Below, in pieces: positions 24,191-47,556 of a DNA stretch of 64,000 nt. The stretch lies in assembly GCA_022496805.1 (NCBI GenBank), contig CM040100.1, forward strand, positions 15,591,009-15,655,008, given 5' to 3'. A program made the translations under genes and the position numbers. Under the pieces are notes generated by a model that was not told the DNA's origin, did no database searches, and saw only the letters and a program-made list of their open reading frames with translations. Origin of the DNA: Pohlia nutans. Its lineage: Eukaryota; Streptophyta; Bryopsida; Bryales; Mniaceae. Numbering within the stretch: the first letter of the stretch is position 1; each line of letters begins with the position of its first letter.

Positions 24191-24204
24191 CAGGGTTGTT
24201 CATC
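24191..24204 (+). repeat. Left terminal inverted repeat of the hAT
   Basis: CAGGGTTGTTCATC. CAGGG is a common hAT terminus. It is followed inward by ATGCCG and GTGTCGTGTCG words. Confidence 0.93.
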
Positions 24205-24489
24205 ATGCCGTTCATGCCGTGTCGTGTCGTGTCGTGCTGATCATGTCGTGTCGGACCCCTCCGGCACGACACGATAGGGTCAACCTAGACTGCAGGTAGG
24301 GTCAACCTAGAGTGCACCTAGTCTTTTCACCTGGTAGGGTTAAAACAGTTACCTTTGTGCCACCTTGCAAGCTATACGTGGCTCAAACAGCACATGTGGC
24401 ATGTCCACGTAGGACCCCTTGGAAGTTGTGTCCTACGTGGCTATGTAGTCCTGGGTAAATTTTTTACCCTCAATCCGTTTGCCTCACTC

Positions 24490-24824
24490 CCGACTGCTCC
24501 TTTCCTCCGACTGCCATGTCTCCCGACTGCCCCCATCCTGGCCGACTGCTCCAATCCGACGGTTTAGATCCATCCGCACCTGCCGACTGCCCCAATCCAA
24601 CGGTGGAGGCCCATCTGCCCGAACCCGACTGCCTCAACCCGACTGCCTCATCCCGTCTGCCCCAGCCCGTCTGCCTCATCCCTCCTGGTCTTGGCCGTCT
24701 GCCCCAACCCGACTGCCCCTCAACCCAACTGCCTCATCCCGTCTGCCCCTCACCCCGTCTGCCCTCACTCCGTCTGCCCCTCGTCCCGTCTGCCCCTCAT
24801 TCCGTCTGCCCTCTTTCCCGTCTG
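24490..24824. promoter_or_regulatory. Motif array 1 (left sub-terminal)
   Basis: Many copies of CCGACTGCC and CCGTCTGCC on the plus strand, spaced about 10-25 bases, starting 300 bases inside the left end. No gene start is attached to it, so it may be an end-recognition array. Confidence 0.8.
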
Positions 24825-25355
24825 TCATGTTCTAAATGACTCCCTTCTCCCTATCATCCCTCCAAAAGATTTTAATTAACAAAAAGATATGCAAAACTCA
24901 TTAAACTTAGAATATTACAATTTAACGAATCACTGGAAATTTTATTCAGAAATAGTCTATGGCATATTTATACTGGAAAGTTTATTCAGAAATTGTCAAT
25001 GCCATATTTATGCTGAAATTTTAATTCAGAAATTGTCAATGCCATTTTTATTCTGAAATTTCAGGGTTGGATTTTGGATTTCACTTTCAAAATTAATTCA
25101 AAAATTGTAGGGCATAGCAATTATATATATAAACGTATGCGTAGAATCAGAAATTCATAATGTACAACTTTTACTTGTACATCTAGTTCAAATGACGATT
25201 CCAAACATGGATGCAACATGCACAACACGCAAATTCAAAAAACAATATTTATTTACACATGGAAAAGTTGTCCTTGAAAAGGACTTACATTGTAAAATTC
25301 AACTAAAGGCAAACTTCTAGGATCCAATGCTGGACTAAGGGAAAAAAACAATGAC
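24825..25355. other. Spacer with a MITE remnant
   Basis: Around 25060-25200 the sequence matches the inverted inner part of the 567 bp TTAA family (CGTATGCGTAGAATCAGAAA, ACTTGTACATCTAGTTCAAA) without its ends. Three imperfect copies of TTTATTCAGAAATNGTCNATGCCAT lie at about 24940-25040. Confidence 0.5.
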
Positions 25356-27137
25356 CTATATATTGTAACGGTAACATTGTGTTGGAGTACTGAGATTGTA
25401 TGGGTTCGCTTTCATCGAGTTCACTGCATGGGCCACGGTCCAACGCTCTTTCGGGTCGTCCTTGGTGAGGCCATCCAAAACCCTATTCAACATCACACGG
25501 GTCGAATCGCATCCTTTAAAGAGCGTTGATGACGACGCATCGTTATATATATATCGTGTGAGCTTCCCCGTTGCATATGCCTGTGATTTCATAGTATTCT
25601 TTGTCTGTTTAGTGCCAGGAGAGACAACCACCCCATCAACTTCCTGGGGCAGCATATACCACATCTCCGGTGCAATCCACCATCGCGCCGTCTTTTTCGC
25701 TTGCAGGTCCGCCTCGTCTCTTGCCCAGTTCAATGAAAGAGGTTCTTCACTACTCCAAGATGCCATGCCCCAGTCGCACACTCCAATGTACACATCTTCT
25801 AGTAACTCCGGTGGAAAATGTAGGAGGATGTTGGATGGGCTCAAATCGTTGTGCAACACGCCGCTTTTGTGTAACACATCGATGATGTTCATGAAGGCCC
25901 AAGCTAGCCAAGCCTGCTGCTTACGAAATGCCGCAATCTTCCGACGGACCTCTAAATCCATCCCTTCCAACGCAAGTAACGTTGAGGGGTGTATCGTGGT
26001 GAAAGGCCGTTCAATCCGCTTCACCGACAGTAGTGAATTTCCATTCCACCATATGGTGAACGCAGACATGTTCTCCGCCGATAACGCAAAGAATTTTATC
26101 ATTCCCGGGTGGTCCACGGGATTGACTAGGGCCTCGATGGAAAGTTCCTTTCTTGCCCTGGTTTTGTCTTTGTGGGCGATCTTGCTTGTCTTCTCAGCAA
26201 AAACCATATGACTTGGAATCGGTGCAAAATTATGAATCGATACTTGCCGCACCTTGCCATACGCCCCCTGGAATTGCTCACCACTTTTGCACACAATTTC
26301 AGCTGACCTCGGAATCCACATGATTCCGGTTCTACCGTGTGAAGAAAGACGACCCACCAGCAACTTGTCGGCCCATGGAGGCATACGTGTCGCGTTCGCT
26401 TTCACCTGCCTGGCGTAATTCTTCCACCAAACCAGCTTCTCATATTCTAGGTCCATTGTAGTGGTAGTTAATAGGGATTTTTCTGCCCCGGGGTGAAGTG
26501 TTTCATAAAGCTGCGTTGGATTGTACACGCCTTGCTGCACTTGATTATGGAACCACAGTCCATAGCCCTCAGTAGTGGGAGCATCATGATGCCTTGCATC
26601 ATTTAGGACGGCGTCGGATAAATACACCTTCATGTCCTTGATTACTGCGGCGAGGCCATGCACTCCGTGGTGCAAGTACTTGGTTTCCAAATACTCCTTC
26701 GACTTCTTCTTATAGAACTGCAAGGTTGAGCGCTGAATTAGAAACAGACAGCCCTTTGAGGGGATATGGGGCCGGTTTCTCCTCTCCTCCGGTGTCATGT
26801 GCTTCCTTTTTTTCCCTGAGCCTCCAGAAGTAGAACCTGACAGCGAGGTACTCTGCGCTTGAGAACTACTCCCTCCAATGACTTCGATGCTTTGTGGTGG
26901 GTCCATGGCCCTAGTCCCAATAGAAGCACTCGCGGTGGGAGAAATCTCAAGATCTTGCACGCCTATCGATATACCTGCGACGCGTTGCGATCCCTGGCTT
27001 TGGTCCCCGCCACCCGATGTAATTGCCACGTGCTGCAACCCTTGGCTTTGGTCCCCAGACGATGGTGTAGCCATAGAGCTCTGTCCTACGGTCCTGATCC
27101 TCGTCGGTGGTTGCTTGAACCCGCTGTTCCGTTCCAT
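25356..27137 (-). CDS. Protein kinase-like protein carried by the hAT, 593 aa
   Basis: I start at ATG 27137, the first ATG after the TATA box. The frame is open a little further upstream but without an ATG. Residues 1 to about 120 are a Ser/Gly/Gln-rich disordered region ending in a basic patch (GKKRKH). The C-terminal half is a protein kinase fold: Gly-rich loop GEQFQGAYGKV, probable ATP-binding Lys316 (FAEKTSK), catalytic loop HNDLSPSN with Asp431, DWG at 455-457 in place of DFG, and APE ending at Glu491. All key residues are present, so activity is plausible, presumably on Ser/Thr. The middle region (about 130-290) is unique to this protein as far as I can tell. It is uninterrupted, unlike its neighbours. 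The role in the transposon is unknown; it may act on the transposase or on host factors. Confidence 0.8.
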   Translation of the reverse strand: MERNSGFKQPPTRIRTVGQSSMATPSSGDQSQGLQHVAITSGGGDQSQGSQRVAGISIGVQDLEISPTASASIGTRAMDPPQSIEVIGGSSSQAQSTSLSGSTSGGSGKKRKHMTPEERRNRPHIPSKGCLFLIQRSTLQFYKKKSKEYLETKYLHHGVHGLAAVIKDMKVYLSDAVLNDARHHDAPTTEGYGLWFHNQVQQGVYNPTQLYETLHPGAEKSLLTTTTMDLEYEKLVWWKNYARQVKANATRMPPWADKLLVGRLSSHGRTGIMWIPRSAEIVCKSGEQFQGAYGKVRQVSIHNFAPIPSHMVFAEKTSKIAHKDKTRARKELSIEALVNPVDHPGMIKFFALSAENMSAFTIWWNGNSLLSVKRIERPFTTIHPSTLLALEGMDLEVRRKIAAFRKQQAWLAWAFMNIIDVLHKSGVLHNDLSPSNILLHFPPELLEDVYIGVCDWGMASWSSEEPLSLNWARDEADLQAKKTARWWIAPEMWYMLPQEVDGVVVSPGTKQTKNTMKSQAYATGKLTRYIYNDASSSTLFKGCDSTRVMLNRVLDGLTKDDPKERWTVAHAVNSMKANPYNLSTPTQCYRYNI

Positions 27138-27288
27138 ATTTTTGTAGAAAAATTTGAAAACCTCCTCCCCCACAAAGGCCAGAAACTTACCGCCCCGGAA
27201 ACCCAAGCAAACTCTGCGTGCGCAGGATTGGTCACGGGTTCCTGTGGGGACCGGTGTGTTCTAGCAGCAGTAAATGAGACGGTTTCCA

Positions 27289-27296
27289 CAATATAT
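27289..27296 (-). promoter_or_regulatory. TATA box of the kinase gene
   Basis: TATATATT on the minus strand (context CTCTATATATTGTGG), about 150 bases upstream of the ATG and a few bases from motif array 2. Confidence 0.6.
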
Positions 27297-27302
27297 AGAG
27301 GC

Positions 27303-27600
27303 GGCCGTCGGGTTAGGGTTTAGGCAGTCGGGGCACGGCAGTCGGGGCAGGACAGTCGGCGCAGGTCGTCGGATACAGGCCGACGGGATTAGGCAGCCGG
27401 ATGGGGGCCGTCGGATCAGGCCGACGGGTTCAGGGCAGTCGGAGGGGGGCCGTCGGATCAGGCCGACGGGTTTAGGGCAGTCGGAGGGGGGCCGTCGGAT
27501 CCAGGCCGACGGATTTAGGGCAGTCGGGTTTAAGGCAGACGGATTTAGGGCAGTCGGGGTAGGCAGACGGGGATAGGCAGTCGGGGGTTTAGGCAGTCGG
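27303..27600. promoter_or_regulatory. Motif array 2, upstream of the kinase TATA box
   Basis: Alternating GGCAGTCGG, GGCCGTCGG and GGCAGACGG with 4-20 base spacers, beginning seven bases upstream of the TATA box in the direction of the gene. Confidence 0.85.
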
Positions 27601-27845
27601 GGGTAGGCACTTGTAACTGTCACAGTAAAACTTATATTAATATTAGTAATTTAGTACCATTCGATTATTCGTACTCGTTAGGATTAATTTCCAAATACTT
27701 TTGTAAGGTTTAGGCTGGTAAATCAATTATAAAAAAACAATTAACAGAAACCAAAAGAAAAATATTGGAGTGCAGTTGGAATATCGTGCACTACATGACG
27801 GTAGGCTTCCCATTAACTCGTTCTACTTATTTTGGAAAATCATGT

Positions 27846-28696: not shown

Positions 28697-30542
28697 CTAT
28701 TCCTCATCCGACTCTAAACTAATAACGGGGTTTGTTTCATCCAATGCGCGCTCCTCCCGTGTTCTACCACTTGAACCTTTGCCCTCCTGTATCACTCTTG
28801 GTGGCGCATACACAGTTGTTTCGTTTGCGGCCGCTCGATGAATCCGTTGGAGGCTGCCCCTAGTGCGGTAACAAACAGCGTCTTCTGTAATAACTTGACT
28901 TCGACGTCGGAGTCTACCCTCTTATCTGGCTTTCAAATACCGCTGTGTCTCTGGAGATACCTTGTGCAATAGTACATAGATGGCTTGCCTCTCCAATCTA
29001 GGTTTGTGGTACAACTGTTCGTTTATGACATTGTCCCCCCTGCTAAGAATATTGGCCTCTAAATCTTGCTGCGGACGTATTGTCTCGCCCATGTGATTCA
29101 ACCTTTGTCTAATGGGAAGTTCTCCTTTCACCAACTGCCCCGTTCTTGCGTCCCAATAATACCCGAACACTTGGAAAAAAGAGAGTTTCAACCCAAAGTT
29201 TGGAGCTTTGTTCGGGTACAACAAATTTGCAGCCAAAAGTACGTTCTCTTTGCTCTCGTGCCAGTTCCACTGCTGCCTCTCGATGTACAGTTGTTGAATG
29301 CTCATGTTGTACTTCCAGCTCCATTCCACCGTCTTCCCAATTTCTTGGGTAGTTACAAATCCCGCAAAATCTGTTGCGTTGTACCTCCAATGACTTGGCA
29401 TGAACGGTAGCAATCCGAATGTTTCATATAACCGGCGGTGGAAAGGGCTGTTGCAAACTGGGCACCGTCGGACGGAAATCATTCGTGGTAAAAGGCATTG
29501 CACATGGAAGCTATGTCTACAACTTTCTAATGACCAAAAACCCTCCGGTCCAAAATAATTGCTTCAAATAATGCACTGGGAACCGTCGTGAACCATTTCG
29601 TTCGGTGCAGGCCATTCCCGCTGTATTCCTAATGTGCTGCAGTTATATTCTTGGAGAGGATTCCATCGGTGTTGGATTGGTAATTTAGGCCAATCAATCC
29701 CCTGAGCCGTCGTTGGCCAGTCATCGTCATACATTGAATCAACTTCAGCCCAAGATGTTAGCATCAGATTTCGCAATCTACCGTCTCTCCCCCATTCCAG
29801 TACAACTTGCTCCATCTCCATCTCCAATGCCCTCACTCTTGCTGCTGCAAGAATGGCAACACTTGCCCAATCATCAAATTGCGTAGCAAGTGCGGCATAC
29901 TCCTTTCTAAGACTCTTATTCTGCCGCTCCAACTCCACCGAGTTATCGTGTTGGACTTCGTATACCATTACGCGGGCCCTCAAGTCTGCAAGCTCTTCGT
30001 GATTTTCAAAGTTCCTGCAACTGAGAGCACGCTCTAATTTTTTTTTTTAAATTCTCGTTTTCTTTTTCTAGAGCGAGGTTCCTTGACATGACTTCACCGG
30101 CCAAAGACTCCGTGGTCGCGATGCAATCTAGAGCAGCGTCCCGTTCATATTGCAGTTTGTCCTCGCGATTCATTGCCGCGACACGTTCCTCGTACTTCCA
30201 CAACTGCGACGAGGTCATTGCCTCCTTCATCTTCCCCATACATTCCGGTGGTGGAACACTCGAAATACTTTGATCAATAGGGACAACAAAATCGTCACTC
30301 CATACCATGGAATGAGCGTTTGAAACATCTTCCTTGAAACCCAGCTCAGCAAGTTTGCCTTCTAAAAATGTCACCCTGGCGCGCAGAGCTGCGACCTCTG
30401 TCTCATGTTTTCTAACGAGGTCTCTGATGACCGTGCTGTGAAAGTGGGTCCCATCCAATGTACTCGGTGCGTCGTGAATTATTGGAAATCCTTTCCCTCC
30501 CGGTAAAACGGGCGTACTTGGTACCACGGTCTCATCCATCAT
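28697..30542 (-). pseudogene. Coiled-coil / RING-finger gene, 3' part (decayed)
   Basis: On the minus strand the frame continues from a short 5' part beyond the copia element (36005-36073) into 30542-28697. It has a Pro/Thr-rich head, two long charged coiled-coil stretches (…VRKHETEVAALRARVTFLEG… and …NKSLRKEYAALATQF…), then a RING-H2-like finger (CII[C]…SCRHSFHVQCLL…CPVCN), then about 230 further residues. Lesions: a 1-base shift in an 11-base T run (30038-30048), TGA at 29564-29566 exactly where the second zinc-binding Cys is expected, TAA at 28922-28924, and the copia insertion. The in-frame text ends at TAG 28697-28699. The ancestral protein was probably a ubiquitin ligase; that role is inferred from the zinc ligands only. 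Confidence 0.7.
30538..30542. repeat. Left target-site duplication of the copia element (ATCAT)
   Basis: Identical to 36000-36004. On the minus strand it is part of an ATGATG in the RING gene. Confidence 0.9.
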
Positions 30543-30800
30543 TATTGAGGTAATTGATGCAACGTAGTATTGCTAGAAGCCAAAGACGTACGGGTGCTAA
30601 ATAATGGTGTGTGGGAGGAGGGGTTAGACATGGGCTGATCTCTAGAGTGTCCTTGTGATGAGTTATCCCATATGGTTTGTCCATGGTGACCTCCTAGTGT
30701 ACACTACTTAAGGTGGAAGGCCTTTGAGTAAAGATTATCTCTTTCTACGCATTCCTTGTGTTTGTGTGTGTGCCTTGTGCAATCTTCTCTACCTTCAATA
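30543..30800 (+). repeat. 5' LTR of the copia element
   Basis: 258 bp, starting TATTGAGG and ending TCAATA, so it carries the short inverted ends TATTGA/TCAATA. It differs from the 3' LTR at four positions by eye. Confidence 0.93.
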
Positions 30801-31620
30801 GGTTATGGGCCCACTCATGTGTGTTTCATGAGTATTAGATTGCATTTGTGCAAGTATTTTGAGGTCGGTGCGCAACGGGCGGTTTTGGAGCATTGTTGGA
30901 GGTTTTGGAGCTTGTTGAAGCGTTGGTGTTTCTTGGAGGTGTGCATGGGCTGAAGTTACATGTTGGAGCACTCTCTTTGGTCAATTTCTTCCCTTGATCT
31001 CCTTCTTTTCTTTCTTCTATCTCTTCGTTGCGAGTGGAACTTCGTTTGGTTCAATTGTGAGCATTTGAGTAAATGCAAGTGATTTGTGAGGTGTGAAGAC
31101 TCTCGTGGAGGGTCTACCATCTGATCCTAGTGATTAGGCACTTGCTTTGAGGTGTTGCATGTGTTTCATGCTCTTGGGGTGCTCAAATTTTCATTTGGAG
31201 CTAGTTTGTGCACAAAGGTGCGGTTTTGAGCAATTTCAATGCGATTGGGGTTTTGAGGGACTTGTGTGAGTTCATGTGCATTGAGTGAGTGCTCTTGAAG
31301 GACACAAAGGTGTCATTGACGTGCATTGAGTGTTTGGGGACACTAAGGCGTCGTATTGAAGCATTTGGAGTTGTTTTGAGCTCCATTGAGTTATTTGAGG
31401 GGTTTTGGTGAGCCTCTTTGCATTTTTGGGTGAGGGTTCTCACATTTGAGTGTTGGGAGGCGTGTGTGGAGCACAAAAGTGCTGATCTAGTGTTTGGGGT
31501 TGTTTTAAACCCATTGGGTGCACAAAGGTGCAATATCAAAAAAAAAAAATCACAAAAACAAAGTTGTGTGTTTGAGTTTGAGGTTTCATTTGTGTGGGGA
31601 GGCATACGTAAGTGAGGATC
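30801..31620 (+). other. Copia leader between 5' LTR and gag-pol
   Basis: About 820 bases, T/G-rich, starting with the primer-binding site and holding short upstream ATGs. A packaging signal would be expected here, but I cannot point to one. Confidence 0.6.
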
Positions 31621-34600
31621 ATGGCATCTTTTGAGGGTGAGGGTCCCAAGGTCGTGGACAAGTTCGATGGGGTGAATTTCCACTTGTGGAAATTCAAAAT
31701 GGAGATGGTGATGGCCGAGAAGGAGTTGTGGGAGATTGTCGAGGGTAGTGAGGAACCTCCTTTCTCTTCTACGGATCCTAGGATCATGCAAGCGTACACG
31801 AGGAGGGAGAAGAAGGCATTTGCCATTTTGGCACTCAACCTCGCGGATTCGCAACTTGCGCACATTCGTTTGTGCAAGACACCCGCGGAAGCATGGTCCA
31901 AGCTTTGCAACATTCACGAAGCGAAAACATTGGCCAACATTTTGTTTTTGAGGCGCAAGTTCTTCACCATCAAGATGGGCGAAGAAGATGACATGTTGGC
32001 GCACATCAACAAGGTCAAAGCTCTCGCGGATCAACTCAACGGTTGCGACGTGTCGGTTACGGATGGTGACATCGTGATGACACTTTTGGAGAGCCTTCCA
32101 TCATCATACGAGTACCTCATCGTGGCGATGGAGTCAAGACCCATTACGGAGCTCACATTGGACTATGTGACCTCACGGTTGTTGCACGAGCTTTCGCGGC
32201 GAAAGGAGAACGAGTCTCGAGAAGATGGAGCGGCACTCGTGGCGAAGCAATTCAAGAATGGAGGCGGTGGGAGCTCAAGCGACAAGGTGTGCTTCTATTG
32301 TGGTAAGAAGGGCCACATTGCCAAATTTTGCTTCAAACGCAAGAGGGATGAGAAAGGGGAGAGTGCAAACAACACTAAAACTCGTGACGATGATGAGTAC
32401 GCATTTACGGCTAGATATGAGGCAAGCATGAGCGATGGCATCGAGGGTGATGCAAGCATGAGTGATGGTATCGAGGGTGATGCAAGCATGAGTGATTGGA
32501 TTGAGGTTGGTGATGAGTATGCAAACATGGCAAGCAATGTATCGTGCAATGGTAGTACGAGTGATTGGATTGTTGATTCGGGGGCTACAAGCCACATGTC
32601 ACCACATAAAACTTGTTTTCATTCGTATGCTCTCATTAATCCAAGGAGAGTGATTTTGGGAGATGATACGGTGCTTGAGGCCGTTGGCAAGGGCCAAATT
32701 GTTGTAGACACCGAGGTGAGGGGTCGTGTGAAGACAATCACTATCCAAGATGTCCTCCACGTTCCCAAATTAACGGCAAATTTACTATCGGTGAGGCAAT
32801 TAGTGGCAAAGCACTTGAGGGTTGAGTTTAGTGATAAGGGGTGTTATGTGTTGTCACCGAGTCGAGATGAGGTGGCCATCATTGAAGAACACGAGGGCTT
32901 GTACCACATCAAGTTCTCCAAGGTGCATTCGAAGGAATCGGCGGCGTTGGCGCATTCAAACTTGAAGGACGACAAGTTGGCGTTGTGGCATCGTCGACTT
33001 GGCCATTTGAACATCAAGAGTGTGAAGACACTACGCGGCATGGTAAGCGGTATGGACCTTCATCAATTGAAAGTGGATGCTTCTACATTCACGTGTGAAG
33101 GTTGCATTGAAGGCAAGCAACAACGGTTGCCATTTGCGGGTGAAGGGGCGACACGGGCCACAAAAGTTTTGGAGATCGTGCATTCGGATGTGTGTGGCCC
33201 CATGAAGACCACATCGATGGGAGGTTGCAAGTACTTTGTGACCTTCATCGATGATTTTTCAAGGAAGATATGGCTCTACCCTATCAAAGCCAAGAGTGAG
33301 TGCTTTGAGAAGTTCAAGGAGTTCAAGACATTGGTGGAGAACCAATCCGAGTTGAAGATCAAGGTGTTTCGGTCGGACAATGGCGGCGAGTACATGTCCA
33401 AGAAATTTGACGAGCTTTTGAAGAATGAAGGCATCGCACGCCAAACTTCGGCCCCGTACACGCCTCAACAAAATGGAGTTGCGGAGCGCGCAAATCGCAC
33501 CATTGTAGAGATGGCGAGGAGCATGTTGCACGCTCAAAACTTGAAGTTGGACCTTTGGGCGGAAGCGGTGGTGAATGCGGTATACACACGCAATCGGTGT
33601 CCAACAAGCGCGGTTGAAGGCATGACGCCGGAGCAAGCGTGGAGTGGGAGGCAACCATGTGTTGCACACATGCGCATCTTCGGATGCATTGCATATGCGA
33701 AGGTTCCTGACGAACGAAGGACGAAACTTGAGGCTAAGGCCTTGAAATGTGTGTTTCTTGGGTATTGTGAAGGTACCAAGGCGTATAGACTCATGTCGGT
33801 GGACACGAGGAAGATCATTCGGTCACGTGATGTGACATTTTGTGAGGAGTCTACGATGGAGGCTCCTTTGGAGGTTGGTCCAAGTGGGAGTAGTGGAGAC
33901 GTTTTGGTGGACACACCCTCCAAGTCTCCTAGTGTTGTTGATGTAGGTGATGATGACGGTGATGACGAAGCTGGCGACACGGAGGTTGTTGAAGCGCCAT
34001 CGAGCTCAAAGGCCAAGAATGGCGCAAAGGGCACGCAAGAGGAGCAAGTTTCTTCAAGCGAGCGGCGGTACCCCAAGAGATCGCGCAAGCCACCTGGAGA
34101 ATGGTGGAAGAACCACATCTTCCCTCAAGTGGAGGACGAGCATGCGAATGTGGCATTATCGGATGGTCCATTGACCATTCGAGAAGCCATGCAAGGTGAG
34201 GATGCGGTCAAGTGGGAGCGCGCCATGCAAGAGGAGTACGACTCTCTAATTGCTAACGGTACGTGGCAATTAACTCCCATTCCAAAGGATCGCAACCCCA
34301 TTGGTTGCAAATGGGTGTTTCGGACAAAGAGGGATGTTTCGGGTATTGTTGTGCGTCACAAGGCAAGATTAGTAGCCAAGGGGTTCGCGCAAGTGCATGG
34401 GGTGGACTTTCACGAGACATTTGCTCCCGTGGCCAAGTTCACCACCATTCGATGCATTCTTGCCATTGGAGCGGCCTTGGACTTGGAGATGCATCAAATG
34501 GATGTGAAGACCGCATTTTTGAATGGCGATTTGGAGGAGGATATCTACATGGTGCAACCTGAGGGGTTTGTGCAACAAGGTAATGAGCACCTTGTTTGTA

Positions 34601-35799
34601 AGTTGCAAAAATCATTGTATGGGTTGAAACAATCTCCAAGAGCGTGGTACCAAAAGATTGACACGTTCTTGGTTGCACACGGGTTTACTAGGAGCATTGC
34701 GGATCATAGTCTCTACTTCATGCAAGAGGGGCAACATGTGGTGATTGTGATCATATATGTTGATGATTTGATCATTCTTGCAAGCCTCATGAGTTTAATG
34801 AATGCATTAAAAGGCATGCTTGAGAGAGAGTACGAGATGAGTGATCTTGGAGAATTGCACTTTTGTCTTGGTGTTGAGTTTGTGCGAGACAGGGCTACAC
34901 GCACTATCACCATGAGTCAAGGCAAGTATGTGATGGATGTGCTCAAGAGATTCGGGATGGAGGATTGTAAGCCCGTGGCAACACCATTGGATGCAAACTC
35001 CAAGCTCGTCAAGCTTTCGGAGGAGGAGTATGCGATGGAGGCTAAATCGATGGCGGAGGTGCCATACAAGCAAGCGGTGGGGTCATTGATGTATGCGATG
35101 ATTGCGACACGGCCCGACCTTGCGTATCCAATTAGCGTGGTGAGTCAACACATGGCGAGACCGGGCTCGATGCATTGGATGACGGTCAAGAGGATCATGC
35201 GTTATTTGAGGGGCACAAGCGATGTGAAGTTGTGTCTTGGAGGCAAAGACATTGTGTTGAGCGGCTATTGTGACGCGGACTACGCGGGAGACACGAGCGA
35301 TCGAAGATCGACAACGGGCTACATGTTCAAGGTCGGATCGGGAGCGGTGTCGTGGAATAGCAAGCGGCAACAAACCACGGCGACATCAACGGTGGAGGCC
35401 GAGTACATGGCTACGAGCCATGCCACGAAGGAGGCCATTTGGTTGAGGCAACTAATGGTGGATGTGGGTTGCACACAAGGTGAGGCTACAACGATTATGT
35501 GTGACAACCAAGGGTGCATTTCACTTGCAAAGAACCCTACACATCATTCACGCACGAAGCACATTGATGTGCAATACCACTTCATTCGGGAGAAGTTGGA
35601 ATTGGGAGTTATACATTTGGAGTATTGCCCAACGGAGCACATGGTGGCGGATGTGCTCACAAAGGGTCTTTGTAGAGACCGACACCAACGATTAGTAATA
35701 GCATTTGGACTTAGAGGCTTTGGCTCTACGCAAAGTGGGAGTATTGAGGTAATTGATGCAACGTATTATTGCTACAAGCCAAAGACGTACGGGTGCTAA
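31621..35799 (+). CDS. Copia gag-pol polyprotein, 1,392 aa
   Basis: I start at ATG 31621 (MASFEGEGPK…); the frame is open a few codons further upstream only from a GTG. Domains in order: Gag with the UBN2-type region (…NFHLWKFKMEM…) and a CCHC knuckle (CFYCGKKGHIAKFC); aspartic protease (WIVDSGATSHM); integrase with HHCC (HRRLGHLN…CEGC) and DDE core (HSDVCG, FRSDNGGEY, PQQNGVAERANR); a poorly conserved acidic linker; reverse transcriptase (WVFRTKRD… to YVDD at about 34756); and RNase H (GYCDADYAGD… VEAEYMA… DNQGCISLA). It makes the capsid and the enzymes for cDNA synthesis and integration. No stop or frameshift, so it may still be active. Confidence 0.96.
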   Translation: MASFEGEGPKVVDKFDGVNFHLWKFKMEMVMAEKELWEIVEGSEEPPFSSTDPRIMQAYTRREKKAFAILALNLADSQLAHIRLCKTPAEAWSKLCNIHEAKTLANILFLRRKFFTIKMGEEDDMLAHINKVKALADQLNGCDVSVTDGDIVMTLLESLPSSYEYLIVAMESRPITELTLDYVTSRLLHELSRRKENESREDGAALVAKQFKNGGGGSSSDKVCFYCGKKGHIAKFCFKRKRDEKGESANNTKTRDDDEYAFTARYEASMSDGIEGDASMSDGIEGDASMSDWIEVGDEYANMASNVSCNGSTSDWIVDSGATSHMSPHKTCFHSYALINPRRVILGDDTVLEAVGKGQIVVDTEVRGRVKTITIQDVLHVPKLTANLLSVRQLVAKHLRVEFSDKGCYVLSPSRDEVAIIEEHEGLYHIKFSKVHSKESAALAHSNLKDDKLALWHRRLGHLNIKSVKTLRGMVSGMDLHQLKVDASTFTCEGCIEGKQQRLPFAGEGATRATKVLEIVHSDVCGPMKTTSMGGCKYFVTFIDDFSRKIWLYPIKAKSECFEKFKEFKTLVENQSELKIKVFRSDNGGEYMSKKFDELLKNEGIARQTSAPYTPQQNGVAERANRTIVEMARSMLHAQNLKLDLWAEAVVNAVYTRNRCPTSAVEGMTPEQAWSGRQPCVAHMRIFGCIAYAKVPDERRTKLEAKALKCVFLGYCEGTKAYRLMSVDTRKIIRSRDVTFCEESTMEAPLEVGPSGSSGDVLVDTPSKSPSVVDVGDDDGDDEAGDTEVVEAPSSSKAKNGAKGTQEEQVSSSERRYPKRSRKPPGEWWKNHIFPQVEDEHANVALSDGPLTIREAMQGEDAVKWERAMQEEYDSLIANGTWQLTPIPKDRNPIGCKWVFRTKRDVSGIVVRHKARLVAKGFAQVHGVDFHETFAPVAKFTTIRCILAIGAALDLEMHQMDVKTAFLNGDLEEDIYMVQPEGFVQQGNEHLVCKLQKSLYGLKQSPRAWYQKIDTFLVAHGFTRSIADHSLYFMQEGQHVVIVIIYVDDLIILASLMSLMNALKGMLEREYEMSDLGELHFCLGVEFVRDRATRTITMSQGKYVMDVLKRFGMEDCKPVATPLDANSKLVKLSEEEYAMEAKSMAEVPYKQAVGSLMYAMIATRPDLAYPISVVSQHMARPGSMHWMTVKRIMRYLRGTSDVKLCLGGKDIVLSGYCDADYAGDTSDRRSTTGYMFKVGSGAVSWNSKRQQTTATSTVEAEYMATSHATKEAIWLRQLMVDVGCTQGEATTIMCDNQGCISLAKNPTHHSRTKHIDVQYHFIREKLELGVIHLEYCPTEHMVADVLTKGLCRDRHQRLVIAFGLRGFGSTQSGSIEVIDATYYCYKPKTYGC

Positions 35800-35999: not shown

Positions 36000-36004
36000 A
36001 TCAT
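36000..36004. repeat. Right target-site duplication of the copia element (ATCAT)
   Basis: Second copy of the 5 bp duplication. Confidence 0.9.
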
Positions 36005-36073: not shown

Positions 36074-36173
36074 TGTAACTGCCTCCGCTTGTACTGCACC
36101 TCTGTAATCGTATGTCCCTCAAAGATTTGTACGGGAGGCGTTTGTCGTGGTACTTCTACAAAGGGTGCACTGC

Positions 36174-37250: not shown

Positions 37251-37630
37251 CCGACTGCCCTCATCCGACTGCCCCCTCACCGACTGCCCCATCCGACTGC
37301 CCTTACCCGACGGCCCGGATGCGACGGCCGCGTCCCGACTGCCCTCATCCGACGGCCGACGATGCGACTGCCGAACCCTGATTGCCCCCCTCCGACCGCC
37401 CCCTCCCGACTGCCCTTACCCGACGGCCCAGATCATCCGGCCGCATCCCGACTGCCCTCATCCGACGGCCCACGATCCGACTGCCCTCGATCCCGACTGC
37501 CCTTACCCGACGGTGCACGATCCCGACTGTCCTTAACCGACGGCCCAGATGCGACTGCCGCATCCCGACTGCCCTCATCCAACGGCCCACGATTCGACTG
37601 CCCCTCTCCGACTGCCCCTCTCCGACTGCC
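37251..37630. promoter_or_regulatory. Motif array 3, upstream of the paralog 2 TATA box
   Basis: Dense CCGACTGCC with CCGACGGCC variants on the plus strand, preceded by a run of C. Confidence 0.87.
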
Positions 37631-38786
37631 TCCCACCAAAGTTTACCCCTTAACGTACTAGGGTGTCCCTGGAATTGAGAGATTGAGAAAAATAGTCATA
37701 CAATACTATTTAGAAGAATATTTTGGAATTGATATACAAATGAAAGTTTTAGATTGAGAATTTTAGATTCCATCCGTACGGTTCGATTCACTAATATTAT
37801 CACCAATATTTAATTATAAAATTTGAAGGTTAAAATTAAAAATTCCTTCTAAATTCGATTACAAACAAAATTTTAATAATTTTTGAGTTAAATTTGTTGG
37901 AATGAATTTGAATTGAGATAATCTGAAACGTGGTGATTCTTTGAAATTTTTGTGTTTCTTAAATGTATGACCTCATTTTTGGAAGGCCACTTTTGAACTA
38001 CAATCAATGCAATTTTGGCTTGGTCAACGACTTGACATACTTCTACATTTGTAATTTTAGAAAAATATGTAATCAAGTATGACTAAATCCAACCGTTAGA
38101 TAAGAGAACAACTTGGTGAAGAATCTCCAAAAATTTGGATGACTTTCATCCAAGCATTGATGAGAACATGATAAGGGTTTGCATCTGTTAATCATCTAGT
38201 TTCTGGACTCTCTGAAGTTTAGCCCTTAAAGAACATACAGTTTGTAAAATCCCAATAACATATGGAAAATTATATTTCATAAATAAAATAAAAATTTGAA
38301 GGTGTCTCCGAGGTAGGCTCATGTAAATTAGGGACTTGGTCCCTAATTTAGAAAATGCAAATCCTAGTCAAAGAACATAGAGTTAGCAAAATCCCGATAA
38401 CATATGGAAAATGATTTTTCGTAAATATTGAAAAAGTTTGGGGGTATTCCTAATGATGTTAGGCACTCGTCTGTGTAAAAAAGTTCCAAAATGGAGTCCT
38501 GGGACTCATGGCTGCATTTTCCACATATTGCAAATCCTTGTCAAAAGACATAAAGTTACCAAAATACCAATAACAATGGCAAATGATAATAGTGTGAGTG
38601 AGACTCCATCCCATAAAAACTTATAATGGCTAATCAAAATTGAGATCTATTTTCTAAAACCGTTGATCCTAATTTGCCATTGTATAAGAACACGTATAAA
38701 ACTAAGCCGTACAATACACTACACAAAATGTCCAAAAAAACTATAATACTATAATTATATACATCTATACATTATGCACACAACAT
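37631..38786. other. Spacer with a diverged MITE and imperfect direct repeats
   Basis: From 37644 (CCCCTTAACGTACTAGG) a diverged member of the TTAA family is recognisable by GATTCCATCCGTACGGTTCG near 37768, without a clear right end. Three imperfect repeats of ACATAGAGTTAGCAAAATCC type lie at about 38228, 38371 and 38540. Confidence 0.45.
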
Positions 38787-39825: not shown

Positions 39826-40053
39826 CCGACTGCCTCAATCCGACGGTTCTTGATTATCACTGTGGCCCGACTGCCCCTGCACCGACTGCCCCCCCCCCCC
39901 CTGACTGCCCCATCCGTCTGCCACCTCCGACTGCCCCATCCGTCTGCCACCTCCGACGGCTCCCTCCGTCTGCCACGTCCGACTGCTCCGTCCGACTGCC
40001 CAACCCGACTGCTGCATCCATCTGCCTGTACTTTACTGTCCCACCCGACTGCC
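39826..40053. promoter_or_regulatory. Motif array 4, upstream of the paralog 1 TATA box
   Basis: CCGACTGCC, CCGTCTGCC and CCGACGGCT variants on the plus strand, with a C run in the middle. Confidence 0.85.
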
Positions 40054-40428
40054 CTCGCCTGCATAGCACTTGGAAAAGTTCAGAACCCAGTACACTTCAG
40101 GAAGAAGTCAACACAATAAGAAACTTAATCCCAAAATCCGGTTGGCTACTATCTAAACTCAATTTACATTGTTTAAAGAAAATTAAATACTTCATCATGA
40201 CATCTCATACAACTTCAAAGTCTATATCGTCAAATCTATAGCACTTCCTCCTTCCTCTCCCATAGATAATTTCAAGATGTTCATGAATTAATTCTTACAT
40301 AGTAACGAACATATGATTTTCAGATATGCATAAAACACACATGCCTAATGTAGGATGTGCTTTTTCCCAAGTAACATAAATAATAGTACGTAACATGAAG
40401 GTGGAAGTCATGCATCCGAAGAGCTTAT

Positions 40429-40885
40429 ATTACCAATGGGCGCGTATTAATATTGTGGGCTCATTGGACATGATAATATGCCTTCCACGATGTTCTACCA
40501 TCATCCAAAAGCCATGCCACATGTGTTTTATATTACCAATGGGCGTATATTAATATTGTGGACTCACTAGAGATGATAATATGCCTTCCACGATGTTCTA
40601 CCATCATCCAAATGCCATGCCACATGTGTTTTATATTACCAATGGGCGTATATTAATATTGTGGACTCACTAGAGATGATAATATGCCTTCCACGATGTT
40701 CTACCATCATCCAAATGCCATGCCACATGTGTTTTATATTACCAATGGGCGTATATTAATATAATGGGCTTACTGGACATGATAATATGCCTTCCATGAT
40801 GTTCTATCATCATCCAAATGCCATGCCACATGTGTTTTATATTACCAATGGTCGTGTATTAATATTGTGGGCTCACTACTCCAAA
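40429..40885. repeat. 103 bp tandem repeat, about 4.4 copies
   Basis: Units start ATTACCAATGGGCG at 40429, 40532, 40635, 40738 and 40841, exactly 103 bases apart, with few differences. Each contains ATGCCATGCCACATGTG. Confidence 0.95.
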
Positions 40886-41285: not shown

Positions 41286-41443
41286 GGCAGTCGGATGGGG
41301 GCAGTCGGATGGGGGCAGTCGGGAGAGGGCAGTCGGGTGATGCAGCTCCAGATTAGAGATGAGAAGAAAGAGGGCAGATGAGGTAGTCGGAGGGGGCAGT
41401 CGGGAGAGGCAGTCGGAGGGGGCAGACGGGAGAGGCAGGCGGG
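41286..41443. promoter_or_regulatory. Motif array 5
   Basis: GGCAGTCGG with GGCAGACGG and GGCAGGCGG, inside the first clear 578 bp unit. No gene start attached. Confidence 0.8.
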
Positions 41444-41759
41444 TGGGCGGTGGGTGACTTGTTGGGCTCAAATTTCAGAATCCACCTTTGTATGAGCAAT
41501 GTTGCCCTCCGCGTGCCTCCGGATGTGGGTGTGATGGAAGTAACAAAAAACATAATTTAAGTCAATCCATCATTAATTCGGTCTGACAAAAACATTAAAA
41601 TCTCGAGGGATTAAGTTTCCTTGTGCAACGTGCCTATGGATATAAAAGTTTTAATTGTACACTTGTTATTCTCACCTGTCACTTGAGCAAGGTGTGGAGG
41701 GAGAGGGTTTGTATGGAAAAGAATTTCTGATTTTCGAATTCATGATGTTTGGAAACTCG

Positions 41760-42020
41760 GCCGTCGGAGAAATGGGACAGTCGGAAATATGGGGCAGTCG
41801 GAAATATGGGCCAATTTAGGAAGACTGGAAGAAGAGTGAAGGGCAGATGGAACAGTCGGAGTGGGGCAGACGGAGGGGAGCAGACGGAGGGGGGCAGACG
41901 AAGGGGGCAAACGGAGGGGGGCAGTCGGGATAGGGCAGTCGGGTGAGGCAGCTGAGGATTAGAGAAGAAGAGAGGGGGCAGATCAGGCAGTCGGAGGGGG
42001 CAGACGGGAGAGGCAGGCGG
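41760..42020. promoter_or_regulatory. Motif array 6
   Basis: Same motif set as array 5, inside the second 578 bp unit. Confidence 0.8.
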
Positions 42021-43188: not shown

Positions 43189-46175
43189 TTAACCTTGAAA
43201 ATCATCATCGTTAGGTGCCTCTGCTCTTGAAGGACTACTGCCGTTTGAACTGATGTCGTCATCTGGTCCGGGTGAAACGGCACGTAAAATTAAAGCACCG
43301 TGGTTGAAAGTGACCAATTTTTTGGTAGGCCGTGACCCTGACGCGTCTCTAATTCCATTGGCATCTAACACCGGTCGCGTGTCATCATTAAGCCCCACAA
43401 AAGGCCTTGGCGCCCTACAAGAATGCCGCTTTTGGCCTCGTGCTCTAGTGTTGATGGTACCAATACCTTGGGTGGTAAGGGAATTTGGATCATCTATTGG
43501 ACTAGGGGGTTGTGTATTTTCAGCACGCAACCGTAATCTCGTATTCGGTCGTGCAATTGGAGGTCCAGTCGTTCTAGCTTGTCCGGTACGCCTAGATTGA
43601 CTGAGACTAAGAAGTGTGGCTCCAATTCCAGTAGTATGAGTCGATGATGTGTTGACAGTAAAGGGAGTATCTATTTCCATTGGTAACGGTTCACATGGTA
43701 TCTGAAGAGATGTTCCGTCGTGGGTAATGTCTTCCAAAGGTTGGATATTTTCCGTACGAGTTGAACATCCTTCGCCATGTGGCACAGTGGGTGGATGGGC
43801 TGGTACAGTAATTTCTAATGGTACAAAAACTACATTATCGCCCGTGGTAGGAGGAGAAGGAAGTGTTGCACCTATGTTGTCGTCGTTGGCGTCGTTGAAA
43901 TTATAGACATTCATCCAATCAAGCCCACCATCCAAATTGTGGCCGTCGGAGTCACCAGAGTCAGTGCTACTATTCCTAGAGGAATCGGAATTACGATCAT
44001 CGAACTGATCAAAGTCCGCCCAGTCAGGTTGTGCACCGAGGGGGTCATCGGGGTCATCGTTTGCGTCGTCATCATCAGGACCTAAACCATCGTCATTGTC
44101 ATCGGGGTTGAATTCTGGATCATCCTCAAAATCTTCATTTGCTGATTCGTCGTCAGAGTACATGTGCCGTGCGTACCATTGTGCAGGGGTTGCACCTCTT
44201 CTCCGCCGCATGAGCCTCGTGTTTGTGTATATGTAAACCAAATCTTCGGCTCTCGAATGTGTTAAACGATTTCTAACTTTGTTATGAACGAAGGAGTACA
44301 TACTCCAATTGCGTTCGCATGATGAGGCTGAGCATACTTGGGCTAATATTTGTCGTGCTATATTAGAGAGTGTCGGCGCCCCATGTCCAAAGGCATCCCA
44401 CCATTCGTGAGGAGGCAAATCGGCCCTTGCTGCTGGAGGTACTCCTTCAAATGCACCCCTACTTTCAATGAAGTCTTGGTACTCCGTTATAGCCACTAGG
44501 TAAGAGGCTTCATCGGGAGTCAAATTCCGTAATACCCGGTTCAATGCCGGCCGTGCACGGGGGTTCTCGTGAAGGGGAATTTTGCCTATCAAAAAAGGAT
44601 TGAGGAGGCCACCAGCCCAGTGGAGGTCAGTCAACATCAAACCCCAACGTGCTTCGAATGAGTCTAAAGCACGCTCTGCAAGTTCACCGTCTAAATTGAA
44701 AGGAGGGTCCGCAAATTTTTGAACGTGTTTCTGTAATTTATGCATGACTAGCCACGCCTTTTCCATCGCAGGTTGTTTTCCATCAAAAACACGTAGAACC
44801 TCCAATACAGGCGTAACCATGAACATGAAATTCTCGCAAGAATTCCAGAACCCATCCGAACGAATTGAACGCCGCACGTTTCCCACTGCTTCGTGAGCAT
44901 TGCCTCCTCTTCCACGCAATTCTATTAAATATGCACCCCATCGATCATCTATGATCATCCTCTCTAAAGCCCCCCTAACTTGAAGAAGTCTTTCAATCAT
45001 GATGAAATTGGTTGCAAAACGGGTGTCTGCTGGCATACGTAGAATGTGGTTGGGCGAGTACACTCGAAACAGAGCTTGTGGAGCATGGTGACGTCTGACA
45101 AAAACGCAAGCTTTCGAGCCTTTTTCACCAAGCTTTTAACCCATCTTTCCGAACCCCAATCTTGCAAAAGTAAGTCCATGATGTGAGCACAACATCCTTG
45201 AAAATAAAGATAAGGATGTCTTTGGGTCAATATGCGGCCCGCTGCCACCATACTGCTAGCATTGTCGGTGCAGACTTGAACCACGTTGGTGGGACCTACT
45301 CTATTGATATGTGCAAACATTTCTTCAGCAACGTAGGGTACATCTTTTTTATTGCCCGTTGTATCAATAGATCCGAGGAACGTATCACCAACGGGGCAAC
45401 ACATCAGTACATTCAAGAGGGGCCGATTCTGAACATTGTCCCATCCATCGGAACAAACCGTTACACCGTACTTGCGGATGGAATCTTTTGTTTTAGCGTT
45501 CACCTCAACCTCTATTTGTGCCCGTCTAGTCTTCAATAGAGAGGTTCGCATGGCGTAGTATGAAGGAGGTTTGTATGTCAACTTCATTGCTGCAGTTTGT
45601 TTAACAGCATTGATAAAAGACGGATGTCTCACCACGTTGAAAGGGATGTTGGCTTCATAGAACGCCGTTGACCAAATTCTATCCAATGTCAACTTTGCAG
45701 ATGACTGTAGCCCCTCTTGCATTGATAATTGACGAAGACCCCTTCCCGCAGAACTAGCTCGAACTTGTGCACTCGGAAGGAAAATTCCACCATGGGTAGA
45801 ATTTTGCGACGAAATCAATGGAGGGTTCTCATTTGCTACTTCAGTACCCTCTGCCGAACAATGATCAATCTCAGGGGGTACTAGTTCTCCAATCCGACGC
45901 TCCTCGTTACCAACATTATCAATGATCTCGAGAGGCTCGGGAAGCACTCTTCCACACCTCGCAAAGAGTGCCCTGATATTTGGTGGAACTTTGGAGCATG
46001 CTCCAACATCCGCAGAGTTTTGTCCGTCTCTATACCCCAAATGAGTAAACATCCTTTCAGCTCTGTATTGAATCTGCTTCTGGCAATACACGCATTCAAC
46101 TCTCCTAATCTTTGTACCCGGACGCACACCTAAATCCCTGAACCACTTATCCCATTCCTCTGTACGCCTCTGCAT
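43189..46175 (-). pseudogene. hAT transposase, one frameshift
   Basis: It starts at ATG 46175 (MQRRTEEWDKWFRDLG…). Order: BED-type zinc finger (CVYCQ…FTHL…GACSKVP), linker, DUF659-like RNase H core with CSDGW (first Asp) and VCTDNASSM (second Asp), a helical insertion, the hAT C-terminal dimerisation region with CERNWS (catalytic Glu) and RNRLTHSRAEDLVYIYTN, then a very acidic tail of about 250 residues. The frame changes at a run of five A (plus strand 45100-45104); the family pattern continues without loss on the other side (…RRHHAPQALF…PADTRFATNFI), so a single base is missing. This would end the protein early unless it is a sequencing error. Its product would cut and join the CAGGG ends. 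Confidence 0.9.
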
Positions 46176-46411: not shown

Positions 46412-46420
46412 ATTCCTGAC

Positions 46421-46468: not shown

Positions 46469-46576
46469 GGCAGACGGAAAAGGGCAGTCGGGGCAGTCGG
46501 GGCAGTCGGGACAGTCGGGGCAGTCGGGGCAGTCGGGGCAGACGGGGCAGTCGGGGCAGTCGACAAAGGCCGTCGG
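46469..46576. promoter_or_regulatory. Motif array 8, divergent promoter between transposase and small ORF
   Basis: Ten or so GGCAGTCGG units, some directly abutting (GGCAGTCGG-GGCAGTCGG), flanked by TATA boxes pointing outward on both strands. Confidence 0.87.
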
Positions 46577-46598
46577 GAAATTGGGGCTGAGAAGCTAA

Positions 46599-46605: not shown

Positions 46606-46638
46606 GCATTGCAAGAGATTTTTCTTTTCATTTTTGCA

Positions 46639-46689
46639 ATGGGGAGTCGTGGGAAGTTGGAGGAGGAGGTGCAAGAGGGAGGGCTCTGA
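46639..46689 (+). CDS. Upstream ORF, 16 aa
   Basis: ATG GGG AGT … to TGA in the leader of the small ORF, 18 bases before its ATG. It may reduce or gate translation of the downstream frame. It is the first ATG after the TATA box. Confidence 0.3.
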   Translation: MGSRGKLEEEVQEGGL

Positions 46690-46707
46690 TCCTCAACGAG
46701 GAACGTG

Positions 46708-47016
46708 ATGAATGTTGAGTCTAAGGTTTCATATCGGAAACCATGGCAGCCATCTGTTAAACTACAGCATGGGAAGTTTGGACCCAAGCCACATCAATTC
46801 AAACTAGTTCCTTTCCCAATGAAGGCGTACGGTGAAAATTTCACCAGCAGTAGTACGTACAAGTCATTGCTGAAGCGACCTGTTTTGAAGAGAACAACAT
46901 TACCACCCAAGGAAAAACCCTTGAAATTTCAAGTGAACTTGAAATGCAATTGTAGTACAGAGGTGTCATGCAATCATGAGTTTGAAGAATGCAAGAACCC
47001 TGAAGAAGAAACATGA
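46708..47016 (+). CDS. Small basic protein of the hAT, 102 aa
   Basis: This is the only plus-strand cargo gene, transcribed away from the transposase. I start at ATG 46708 (MNVESKVSYRKPWQPS…). The protein is basic in its first 80 residues (…KLQHGKFGPKPHQFK…, …LLKRPVLKRTTLPPKEK…) and ends with four Cys and a His (KCNCSTEVSCNHEFEEC), a possible zinc site. I recognise no family. The TATA box, the shared array and the clean start support it as a gene; an accessory DNA-binding protein is one possibility. Confidence 0.5.
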   Translation: MNVESKVSYRKPWQPSVKLQHGKFGPKPHQFKLVPFPMKAYGENFTSSSTYKSLLKRPVLKRTTLPPKEKPLKFQVNLKCNCSTEVSCNHEFEECKNPEEET

Positions 47017-47057
47017 CAGTGAGACGTACAGAGAGAGGAGAATTTTGGACGGGGATG

Positions 47058-47290
47058 GGCAGTCGGGTGGGGGCAGATGGGACGGGGGCAGTCGGGATAG
47101 GGCAGTCGATGGGGGCAGTCGGGGCGGGCAGACGGGGAGGGGGCCGTCAGCGAGGGCAGACGGGCACTGGGCAGTCGGGTGGGGCAGATGGGGCGGGGGC
47201 AGTCGGGATGGGGCAGTCGGATGGGGGCAGTCGGGGCGGGTAGACGGGGAGGGGGCCGACGGCCTGGGCAGACGGGAAGGAGGCAGTCGG
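47058..47290. promoter_or_regulatory. Motif array 9 (right sub-terminal)
   Basis: GGCAGTCGG, GGCAGACGG and GGCCGTC variants on the plus strand, that is, the same inward-reading orientation from the right end as array 1 from the left end. Confidence 0.83.
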
Positions 47291-47542
47291 GGAGGGCAAA
47301 TGGGCAGTTCAAAGGTAAAACCATTTCACTTTACTGAAGGACCTTAATTTCACTAGAAGTCCACATCATCAAGTAGTCCACGTCAGATACTGACGTGTCG
47401 ACGTGCGGGGTAAAAGTCAAAAAAAAAATTTCCCGGTAAAAAATCGGGCCGGCATGATCCCGACACGATCCGGCATAATGCCGGCATGACATCATGTCGG
47501 CATGACACGACATTGTGCCGGGATTTCTCTCCGACACGACAC

Positions 47543-47556
47543 GATGAACAACCCTG
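47543..47556 (-). repeat. Right terminal inverted repeat of the hAT
   Basis: GATGAACAACCCTG, the exact complement of the left end. Confidence 0.93.

Follow-up and report, generated by a model that had tools for sequence, protein, structure and literature searches.

A large hAT transposon family of the moss Pohlia nutans carries a fixed set of accessory genes and upstream motif arrays

Introduction

hAT elements are usually regarded as small, one-gene transposons. A stretch of 64,000 nucleotides of the moss Pohlia nutans (GenBank assembly GCA_022496805.1, contig CM040100.1, positions 15,591,009 to 15,655,008 of the forward strand), hereafter called the window, contains a hAT element at positions 24191-47556 that measures 23,366 bases, has left and right ends identical over 14 bp and holds, besides a transposase gene, a protein kinase gene, a coiled-coil/RING gene, two paralogs of one protein family (paralog 1 and paralog 2) and a small gene. 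The locus raises the question of what these additional genes are to the element. The original prediction, made from the letters of the window alone, suggested a plant counterpart of the giant cargo-carrying elements. We report here that the window element belongs to a large hAT family of P. nutans. It is quite probable that this is a multi-gene family with a fixed module of transposase, atypical kinase, paralog2-coiled-coil-RING protein, paralog 1 and a small protein, the expression of which is proposed to be driven by motif arrays; the existence of the family and of the module can be stated with great confidence.

Boundaries, copy number and transposition

The ends of the window element, CAGGGTTGTTCATC on the left and its reverse complement on the right, are flanked by a perfect 8-bp target-site duplication, ACAATAGC, and both ends and duplication lie exactly where they had been predicted (Table 1). 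A search with the joined 300-base flanks of the insertion identified an uninserted relative of the site in the same genome at C5:45432430-45432729, which aligns over 300 of 300 bases without gaps at 95% identity and contains a single ACAATAGC; a second relative of the joined flanks, 83% alike, was found on C4. The insertion point lies within an open frame, adjoining reverse-transcriptase frames resembling those of long interspersed nuclear elements (LINEs). The predicted size of 23.4 kb is correct as to the boundaries, but about 5.46 kb of it belongs to a nested copia retrotransposon with 258-bp long terminal repeats (LTRs) that are 98.45% alike, so that the element proper measures approximately 17.9 kb. 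The copia is a later insertion and stands outside the hAT element proper.

To define the family, the 14-mer end was counted genome-wide. It occurs 222 times (110 + 112), while a reversed control occurs twice (0 + 2). As exact 17-bp ends, 121 left-type ends (continued by ATG) and 91 right-type ends (continued by GTG) were found, and the first 100 of the left-type ends were paired with all right-type ends, giving 191 ends in total; pairing by exact ends would miss small relatives with altered ends. This gave 57 inward pairs at a limit of 75 kb, of which 49 remain at 40 kb and 46 at 31 kb, compared with two same-side and one everted control combination within 40 kb. The 8-bp duplications are perfect in 35 of the 46 pairs and have at most one mismatch in 42 (26 perfect and five with one mismatch among 35 pairs, eight and two among ten, and the perfect duplication of the window copy); the four failing pairs show 2, 3, 5 and 6 mismatches. 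When the duplications of the 35 pairs were combined wrongly, at most one mismatch was seen in 2 of 1190 combinations. Chance can thus be excluded, given the counts of the 14-mer and of the matching duplications, and the window element is a genuine hAT insertion. Ends, duplications and the related empty site show that the family moved by cut and paste.

Copies with the predicted ends and duplications are therefore numerous, and the family ends are present on at least 21 scaffolds. That the two ends might occur elsewhere as ends of separate small elements was rejected: among the paired exact ends, the only pair below 6 kb measures 1,005 bp and is the one with three mismatches in its duplication, and the shortest pair with a perfect duplication measures 6.4 kb. 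At the other extreme, a 61-kb pair on C5, the one tested of 11 pairs above 31 kb, also has a perfect duplication. Its transposase and that of the element at C5:46543609-46562434, a copy with open genes, match at 100% after rounding, yet their perfect duplications differ, and the two are accordingly separate insertions.

A fixed gene set in coding copies and a non-coding class

Ten elements were fetched whole (E01-E10), which together with the window copy makes 11 elements read inside. Six of these are coding copies (the window copy, E02, E05, E06, E07 and E09). The five fetched coding copies contain every gene of the window copy, arranged and oriented alike, and their aligned blocks are about 77-97% identical to it; the coding members measure 17.9-19.7 kb (the window copy counted without its copia). 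E04 retains the ends, a kinase fragment and the small gene. Apart from the copia in E01 and E08, the remaining elements (E01, E03, E08 and E10) have only ends and repeats in common with the window copy, and they share 9.3-11.8 kb among themselves at 88-94% identity. No match of the window-copy proteins was obtained in these four by tblastn at 1e-6. Outside its right array, E03 (13.4 kb) lacks any frame of 130 amino acids (aa). In E01 and E08 the longer frames consist mainly of copia sequence, and in E10 they fall in a stretch that E03 does not have. The copia copies in E01 and E04 are about 99% alike to that of the window. The family thus falls into two classes, one coding and the other, of about 13 kb, non-coding. 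The latter has nothing but ends, repeats and arrays in common with the former and is unusually long for non-autonomous elements. Derivatives of about 13 kb without window-copy genes, namely E03 and E10 (L013-L014 and L027-L028) and further pairs of 12.2-13.8 kb, have inverted pairs of 103-bp-type repeats.

The same gene set was followed through the paired ends. Kinase and both paralogs were matched in 25 of the 45 pairs of 1.5-31 kb, the paralogs only in one and neither in 19, five of which are E01, E03, E04, E08 and E10. The markers have one orientation in all 26 paralog-bearing paired elements, and the kinase match starts 1.06-2.15 kb from the left end in the 16 plus-oriented kinase-bearing pairs. 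A listed transposase match is present in 17 of the 45. Genome-wide, paralog 1 lies upstream of the kinase on the same strand within 25 kb for 58 of 76 kinase matches and on the opposite strand for none (a count that used 70 of 78 paralog-1 places); paralog 2 lies downstream of paralog 1 on the same strand within 5 kb for 63 of 78 paralog-1 matches, with one opposite-strand neighbour; and an exact family end lies within 20 kb of 56 of the 78. The genes are co-inherited in one order and orientation. The expectation that they recur together was borne out, by matches in 25 of 45 paired elements and by reading in full in 5 of 10 fetched elements, and a one-off assemblage was rejected.

The numbers of genome matches are lower bounds, as 74 of 632 candidates were scored for the kinase, 46 of 857 for the transposase and 150 of 770 for paralog 1. 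The kinase has at least 76 genome matches and, as predicted, is a full open gene in the window copy; its HND and DWG motifs are invariant and its APE motif nearly so in an alignment of 11 sequences. A sequence search of the PDB with the kinase returned two sequences only, both FUS3, with weak E-values. For the transposase, at least 47 genome matches were found, the frameshifted gene of the window copy not being among them. The predicted hAT assignment was confirmed by the 14-bp terminal inverted repeats, the 8-bp duplications and the C-terminal dimerisation domain, which was detected in the open copy P0026 (PF05699, 1.3e-10; with PF04937, 3.3e-37) and also in the window. A 995-aa open homologue has a Cys/His-rich N-terminus, and the acidic tail of the transposase is rich in serine.

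The 150 scored matches of the paralog 1 search comprise 78 paralog-1-like matches (45 stop-free) and 72 paralog-2-like matches (40 stop-free), and open frames around the latter reach 914 aa. In E05, E06, E07 and E09, a single open frame leads from paralog 2 into the coiled-coil/RING gene; in E02 this frame is interrupted by a stop. All predicted parts are present, but paralog 2 and RING are one gene, which the copia has split in the window copy; separate genes were ruled out by the single frame in four of the five other coding copies. The RING part of the window copy gives a partial match below the cut-offs of Pfam and is disrupted by a TGA peculiar to this copy, by an early stop and by a +1 shift. 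Of the five other coding copies, E02 has YIIC at the start of the RING and the remaining four have CIIC or CSIC. A recoding of UGA was rejected, since the TGA occurs in the window copy only among six aligned copies and the others have TGC or TGT. Neither the paralogs nor the small protein gave a match in Pfam, and for paralog 1 this applies to the window copy and to the homologues P0001 and P0002. The small protein of E04 was found in six other elements at 89-93% identity; its gene is interrupted by a stop in the window copy and E09 and by a frameshift and a stop in E06. The predicted open frames hold for the kinase and paralog 1 but not for the small gene, with its TGA at codon 17, and these two are the only open genes of the window copy, in which the transposase is frameshifted and paralog 2 contains a stop.

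Relatives were also sought in databases, where paralog 1 has three matches. One of them, P0002 (paralog 2), is listed with a 15,061-bp ENA contig, as is the kinase match P0004 (98%); the contig is probably from P. nutans or a close species. Twenty further kinase matches (P0006-P0025) show 26-38% identity. A 15,563-bp ENA contig is listed for one of these, P0010 (36%), and likewise for the transposase homologue P0031 (49%); if these entries are one contig, the linkage of kinase and transposase appears to be old. The kinases P0006-P0025 have motifs of the HNDLSPxN/CDWG type and an N-terminal extension (10 of 22 matches aligned), and further members may be transposon-borne.

Selection on the accessory genes

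The ratio of nonsynonymous to synonymous substitution rates (dN/dS) was determined by the Nei-Gojobori method with bootstrap intervals, with the element at C4:9765917 representing a third clade. Between the window copy and this clade, dN/dS is 0.34 (0.27-0.44) for the kinase, 0.32 (0.21-0.51), 0.24 (0.13-0.42) and 0.21 (0.13-0.30) for three RING pieces and 0.23 (0.14-0.37) for paralog 1, at synonymous distances (dS) of 0.52-0.80. The transposase, compared between E09 and the third clade, gives 0.22 (0.18-0.27). All ratios between the window copy and E05 fall between 0.26 and 0.49, with intervals entirely below 1 (the widest reaching 0.96), and paralogs 1 and 2 differ from each other with a dS of 2.4 and a ratio of 0.11. 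These values show purifying selection on the kinase, the RING gene, paralog 1 and the transposase.

Because the genes keep one order and orientation in six coding copies, are under purifying selection alongside the transposase and show an apparent kinase-transposase linkage elsewhere, we infer that they are the element's own module rather than variable or recently captured host genes. The original suggestion of a plant counterpart of giant cargo carriers does not agree with a gene set that is fixed, selected and behaves as the element's own module.

Motif arrays upstream of the element genes

The 9-mer CCGACTGCC is the commonest 9-mer after (AT)n in the five fetched coding copies. The window copy contains 99 matches to four motif variants and their complements, and none was found in the 40.6 kb of the window outside the element. 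Each of the four main genes is preceded by a motif array. Measured from the gene start in the six coding copies, the array begins 166-186 bp upstream for the kinase, 385-460 bp for paralog 2 and 348-422 bp for paralog 1; for the transposase the distance is 271-308 bp in five of the six. The arrays predicted at the accessory genes were thus found, and raw counts place a TATA-like box in the interval between array and gene in five of six coding copies for the kinase and paralog 2 and in all six for paralog 1 and the transposase.

Each array of the coding copies has one orientation, except for single reversed motifs in three right-end arrays, and the right-end arrays of the non-coding class are of mixed orientation. 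Between 69 and 121 motifs were counted in each of the four non-coding copies and 11 in E04. Genome-wide, the spaced pair CCGACTGCC-N5-CCGACTGCC occurs 424 times and its reversed control never. Of the 100 pairs that head the list (C1-C4), 80 have an exact family end no more than 20 kb away; when 14 element-gene places are counted along with the ends, the number rises to 88, and the 20-kb zone so defined covers 1.2% of these chromosomes. Arrays away from listed ends and genes were seen at C1:8981765-8992221, C1:9081330-9084004 and C1:17045279-17045351, possibly diverged elements or host sites.

Proposed function and alternative explanations

The arrays resemble the targets of the anti-silencing protein VANC in the VANDAL transposons of Arabidopsis, and by this analogy we tentatively propose an anti-silencing step in which an element protein reads the arrays and keeps the element expressed. 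A DNA-binding protein encoded by the element, either the transposase through its Cys/His-rich N-terminus or a paralog protein, would bind the CCGACTGCC arrays and keep the promoters from being silenced by the host, in the manner of VANC on VANDAL; a DNA-binding role of the paralog domain is a guess, given its lack of a Pfam match and its poor predicted model. The RING protein could mark a host silencing factor for removal, the kinase could tune the transposase, through its acidic, serine-rich tail, or a chromatin protein, and the non-coding class would be carried along in trans.

Several observations weigh against the reading of a selected module with array-driven expression. In E06, the array closest to the start of the transposase is 757 bp away from it. 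Of the first 100 motif pairs, 12 are more than 20 kb from any listed family end or gene, and the neighbouring partner or end that would be expected is missing for 18 of 76 kinase matches and 22 of 78 paralog-1 matches. Values of dN/dS within the close subclade are noisy, reaching 2.40 (against E02) and 1.06 (against E07) for paralog 1 and 1.06 for the N part of the transposase against E02. The predicted model of paralog 1, a domain without a Pfam match, is poor, with a predicted local distance difference test score (pLDDT) of 52. Finally, many copies carry stops, and much of the family is therefore probably dead. The arrays also occur at both ends and in the non-coding copies, which would fit subterminal binding by the transposase equally well.

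This last point leads to a serious if doubtful alternative, namely that the arrays are only subterminal binding sites of the transposase or satellite-like expansions spread by slippage and that the accessory genes aid transposition directly, with no anti-silencing involved. Subterminal repeats are bound by hAT transposases, arrays lie at both ends in all 11 elements read, and the Cys/His-rich N-terminus of the transposase is in line with such binding. However, arrays also closely precede the four main genes; in the coding copies the motifs of an array nearly always point the same way, and both features recur in clades about 16% apart, which is more than plain subterminal sites need.

A carrier of the Starship type that moves variable, host-useful cargo is very unlikely. 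The size, the presence of a kinase and a ligase-like gene and the array-and-TATA upstream regions of the genes are what would be expected of one, but the cargo does not differ among copies, kinase, paralog 1 and paralog 2 being present in one layout in 25 of the 26 paralog-bearing paired elements (11 elements read inside), and the mover is a hAT transposase, which the mover of Starships is not known to be. The 10 frames scanned contained no Pfam recombinase other than the copia integrase, and no tyrosine-recombinase domain was found in the further proteins scanned. This explanation is largely refuted.

Still less probable is an origin of the Pack-TIR type, in which one ancestral element picked up host genes by chance and these are now neutral passengers. 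Stops are present in cargo genes of many copies, and a host donor is possible, as only the best candidates were scored; yet the genes are not promoterless, unselected host fragments. Open frames around paralog-2 matches extend up to 914 aa, and arrays and TATA-like boxes lie upstream of the genes. The dN/dS values of the kinase, the RING pieces and paralog 1 (0.21-0.34, with dS at 0.5-0.8) are similar to that of the transposase. The divergence of paralogs 1 and 2 under a low ratio and the apparent kinase-transposase linkage in a distant element also argue against neutral passengers. That the copies are segmental or whole-genome duplicates, to which the recent whole-genome duplication reported in the accessible text of the P. 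nutans genome paper and the LFY matches on chromosome pairs would lend themselves, is extremely improbable because their 8-bp duplications differ between sites and the window copy has a related empty site, and it is refuted for those pairs, 42 of 46, whose duplications match.

If the proposal of array-driven expression is extended, the family may represent a "self-governing" class of hAT elements in mosses and possibly other lineages, a suggestion that we put forward with reserve and by analogy, in which an old host-manipulation kit is combined with a private promoter DNA code. The kit would consist of the kinase, a RING ligase with a family-specific recognition domain and a free-standing decoy or adaptor, and one element-encoded factor would switch on the whole kit and the non-coding relatives in trans. 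Were this true, a hAT anti-silencing system would have arisen independently of VANC.

Comparison with known systems

Ac/Ds-type hAT elements have short inverted ends, 8-bp duplications, a transposase with Dimer_Tnp_hAT domain and autonomous and non-autonomous members. The P. nutans family resembles them in its short inverted ends, 8-bp duplications, Dimer_Tnp_hAT domain and coding and non-coding members. While Ac measures 4.6 kb according to the accessible text (PMC3260210), the coding members described here reach 17.9-19.7 kb with accessory genes and have 13-kb non-coding relatives.

VANDAL elements, as far as the accessible text describes them, are multi-gene DNA transposons with dense one-orientation motif arrays in non-coding and upstream DNA; the array length varies between copies and the motif is concentrated in the family, as in P. 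nutans (PMC5735166). The VANC21 motif of nine bases is dense, has the same orientation, lies in non-coding DNA and upstream regions and is gained or lost by tandem repeats, according to the same text (PMC5735166). Dense same-orientation arrays that are rare elsewhere were likewise found in the non-coding DNA of our family, apart from the mixed right ends of the non-coding class. In contrast to VANDAL, which is Mutator-like, the P. nutans family has a hAT transposase, the motif CCGACTGCC, a kinase and a RING gene, and the two were likened by description.

Accessory demethylase or kinase genes, with an order conserved in some families, are described in the accessible text for the fungal TET+ hAT7 elements and for IS3EU elements with an alpha-kinase gene (PMC12730594). 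These differ in being fungal, in the 7-bp duplications of hAT7 and in their accessory families, and promoter arrays are not mentioned in that text (PMC12730594). ToxhAT of fungal wheat pathogens (14 kb) is similarly large, by name hAT-like, and moves another gene, but this is a fungal effector gene, and no conserved kinase/RING module is described in the accessible text (PMC12506042). The fungal Starships are giant eukaryotic transposons with their own genes, but in the accessible descriptions their cargo is diverse (PMC12289983, PMC11623301), while the gene set is fixed in the coding copies read here. A soybean CACTA element of 20.5 kb is a plant DNA transposon of similar size that belongs to a different superfamily, as given in the accessible text (PMC2613891). 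No description of a multi-gene giant hAT element in plants was found in the accessible part of the open-licence literature, nor is such an element described in the accessible text of the P. nutans genome paper.

According to the accessible part of a review, the efficacy of DNA transposition falls significantly above 6 kb of cargo (PMC6431247). Coding hAT copies of 17.9-19.7 kb with several accessory genes under selection challenge both this limit and the view of hAT elements as small. If the arrays act like VANC targets, unrelated transposon superfamilies would have acquired sequence-specific escape from silencing on at least two occasions, which could be tested in a moss. Gene targeting is routine in Physcomitrium.

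Features of the window copy and neighbouring sequences

Table 1. Positions of the hAT element, its genes and its repeats in the window
Feature	Position	Strand	Evidence or remark
Left target-site duplication ACAATAGC	24183..24190	.	sequence
Left 14-bp terminal inverted repeat CAGGGTTGTTCATC	24191..24204	+	left-type end, then ATG
Left subterminal CCGACTGCC/CCGTCTGCC array	24490..24811	-	
Protein kinase gene, open, 593 aa	25356..27137	-	Pfam Pkinase 8.3e-10; alignment; at least 76 genome matches
Motif array directly upstream of kinase TATA-like box	27303..27601	+	
Coiled coil and RING, 3' part of paralog2-coiled-coil-RING gene	28700..30542	-	low boundary approximate
Nested copia LTR retrotransposon	30543..36001	+	258-bp LTRs
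Paralog 2 domain, 5' part of paralog2-coiled-coil-RING gene	36002..36866	-	in-frame stop in window copy
Motif array upstream of paralog2-RING TATA-like box	37251..37631	-	
Paralog 1, open, 205 aa	38787..39404	-	
Motif array upstream of paralog 1 TATA-like box	39826..40054	-	
103-bp tandem repeat	40425..40878	.	relatives in both orientations in non-coding class
Two motif arrays, no gene directly attached	41286..42009	+	
hAT transposase gene (DUF659, Dimer_Tnp_hAT, acidic C-terminal tail)	43189..46175	-	frameshifted around 45000-45135
Motif array between divergent transposase and small gene	46469..46577	+	
Small gene (125 aa in E04, E07)	46639..47013	+	TGA at codon 17 in window copy
Right subterminal motif array	47058..47291	+	
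Right 14-bp terminal inverted repeat	47543..47556	-	right-type end, then GTG
Right target-site duplication ACAATAGC	47557..47564	.	sequence

A scan of the window at the Rfam gathering thresholds gave no match. The LINE-like surroundings of the element extend over positions 22745-59604 on the forward strand, with a weak Exo_endo_phos match in 51730-54312. One frame (54382-58272) holds both RVT_1 and a match to PCIF1_WW (3.2e-11), followed by RNase H at 58273-59604. The PCIF1-type domain, which we take to be that of a cap m6Am methyltransferase, is unusual within a LINE-like frame. A DUF7748 domain (1.4e-23) at 11247-11825 on the reverse strand marks a possible host gene. Elsewhere in the genome, an LFY piece agrees with the PDB chain 4bhk, which is from a moss, at 61 of 63 residues. 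In addition, twelve weaker SAM_LFY matches (30-44 bits), duplicated and partly clustered, were observed on C7/C8, C9/C10 and C5/C6, and two strong LFY loci lie on C11 and C12.

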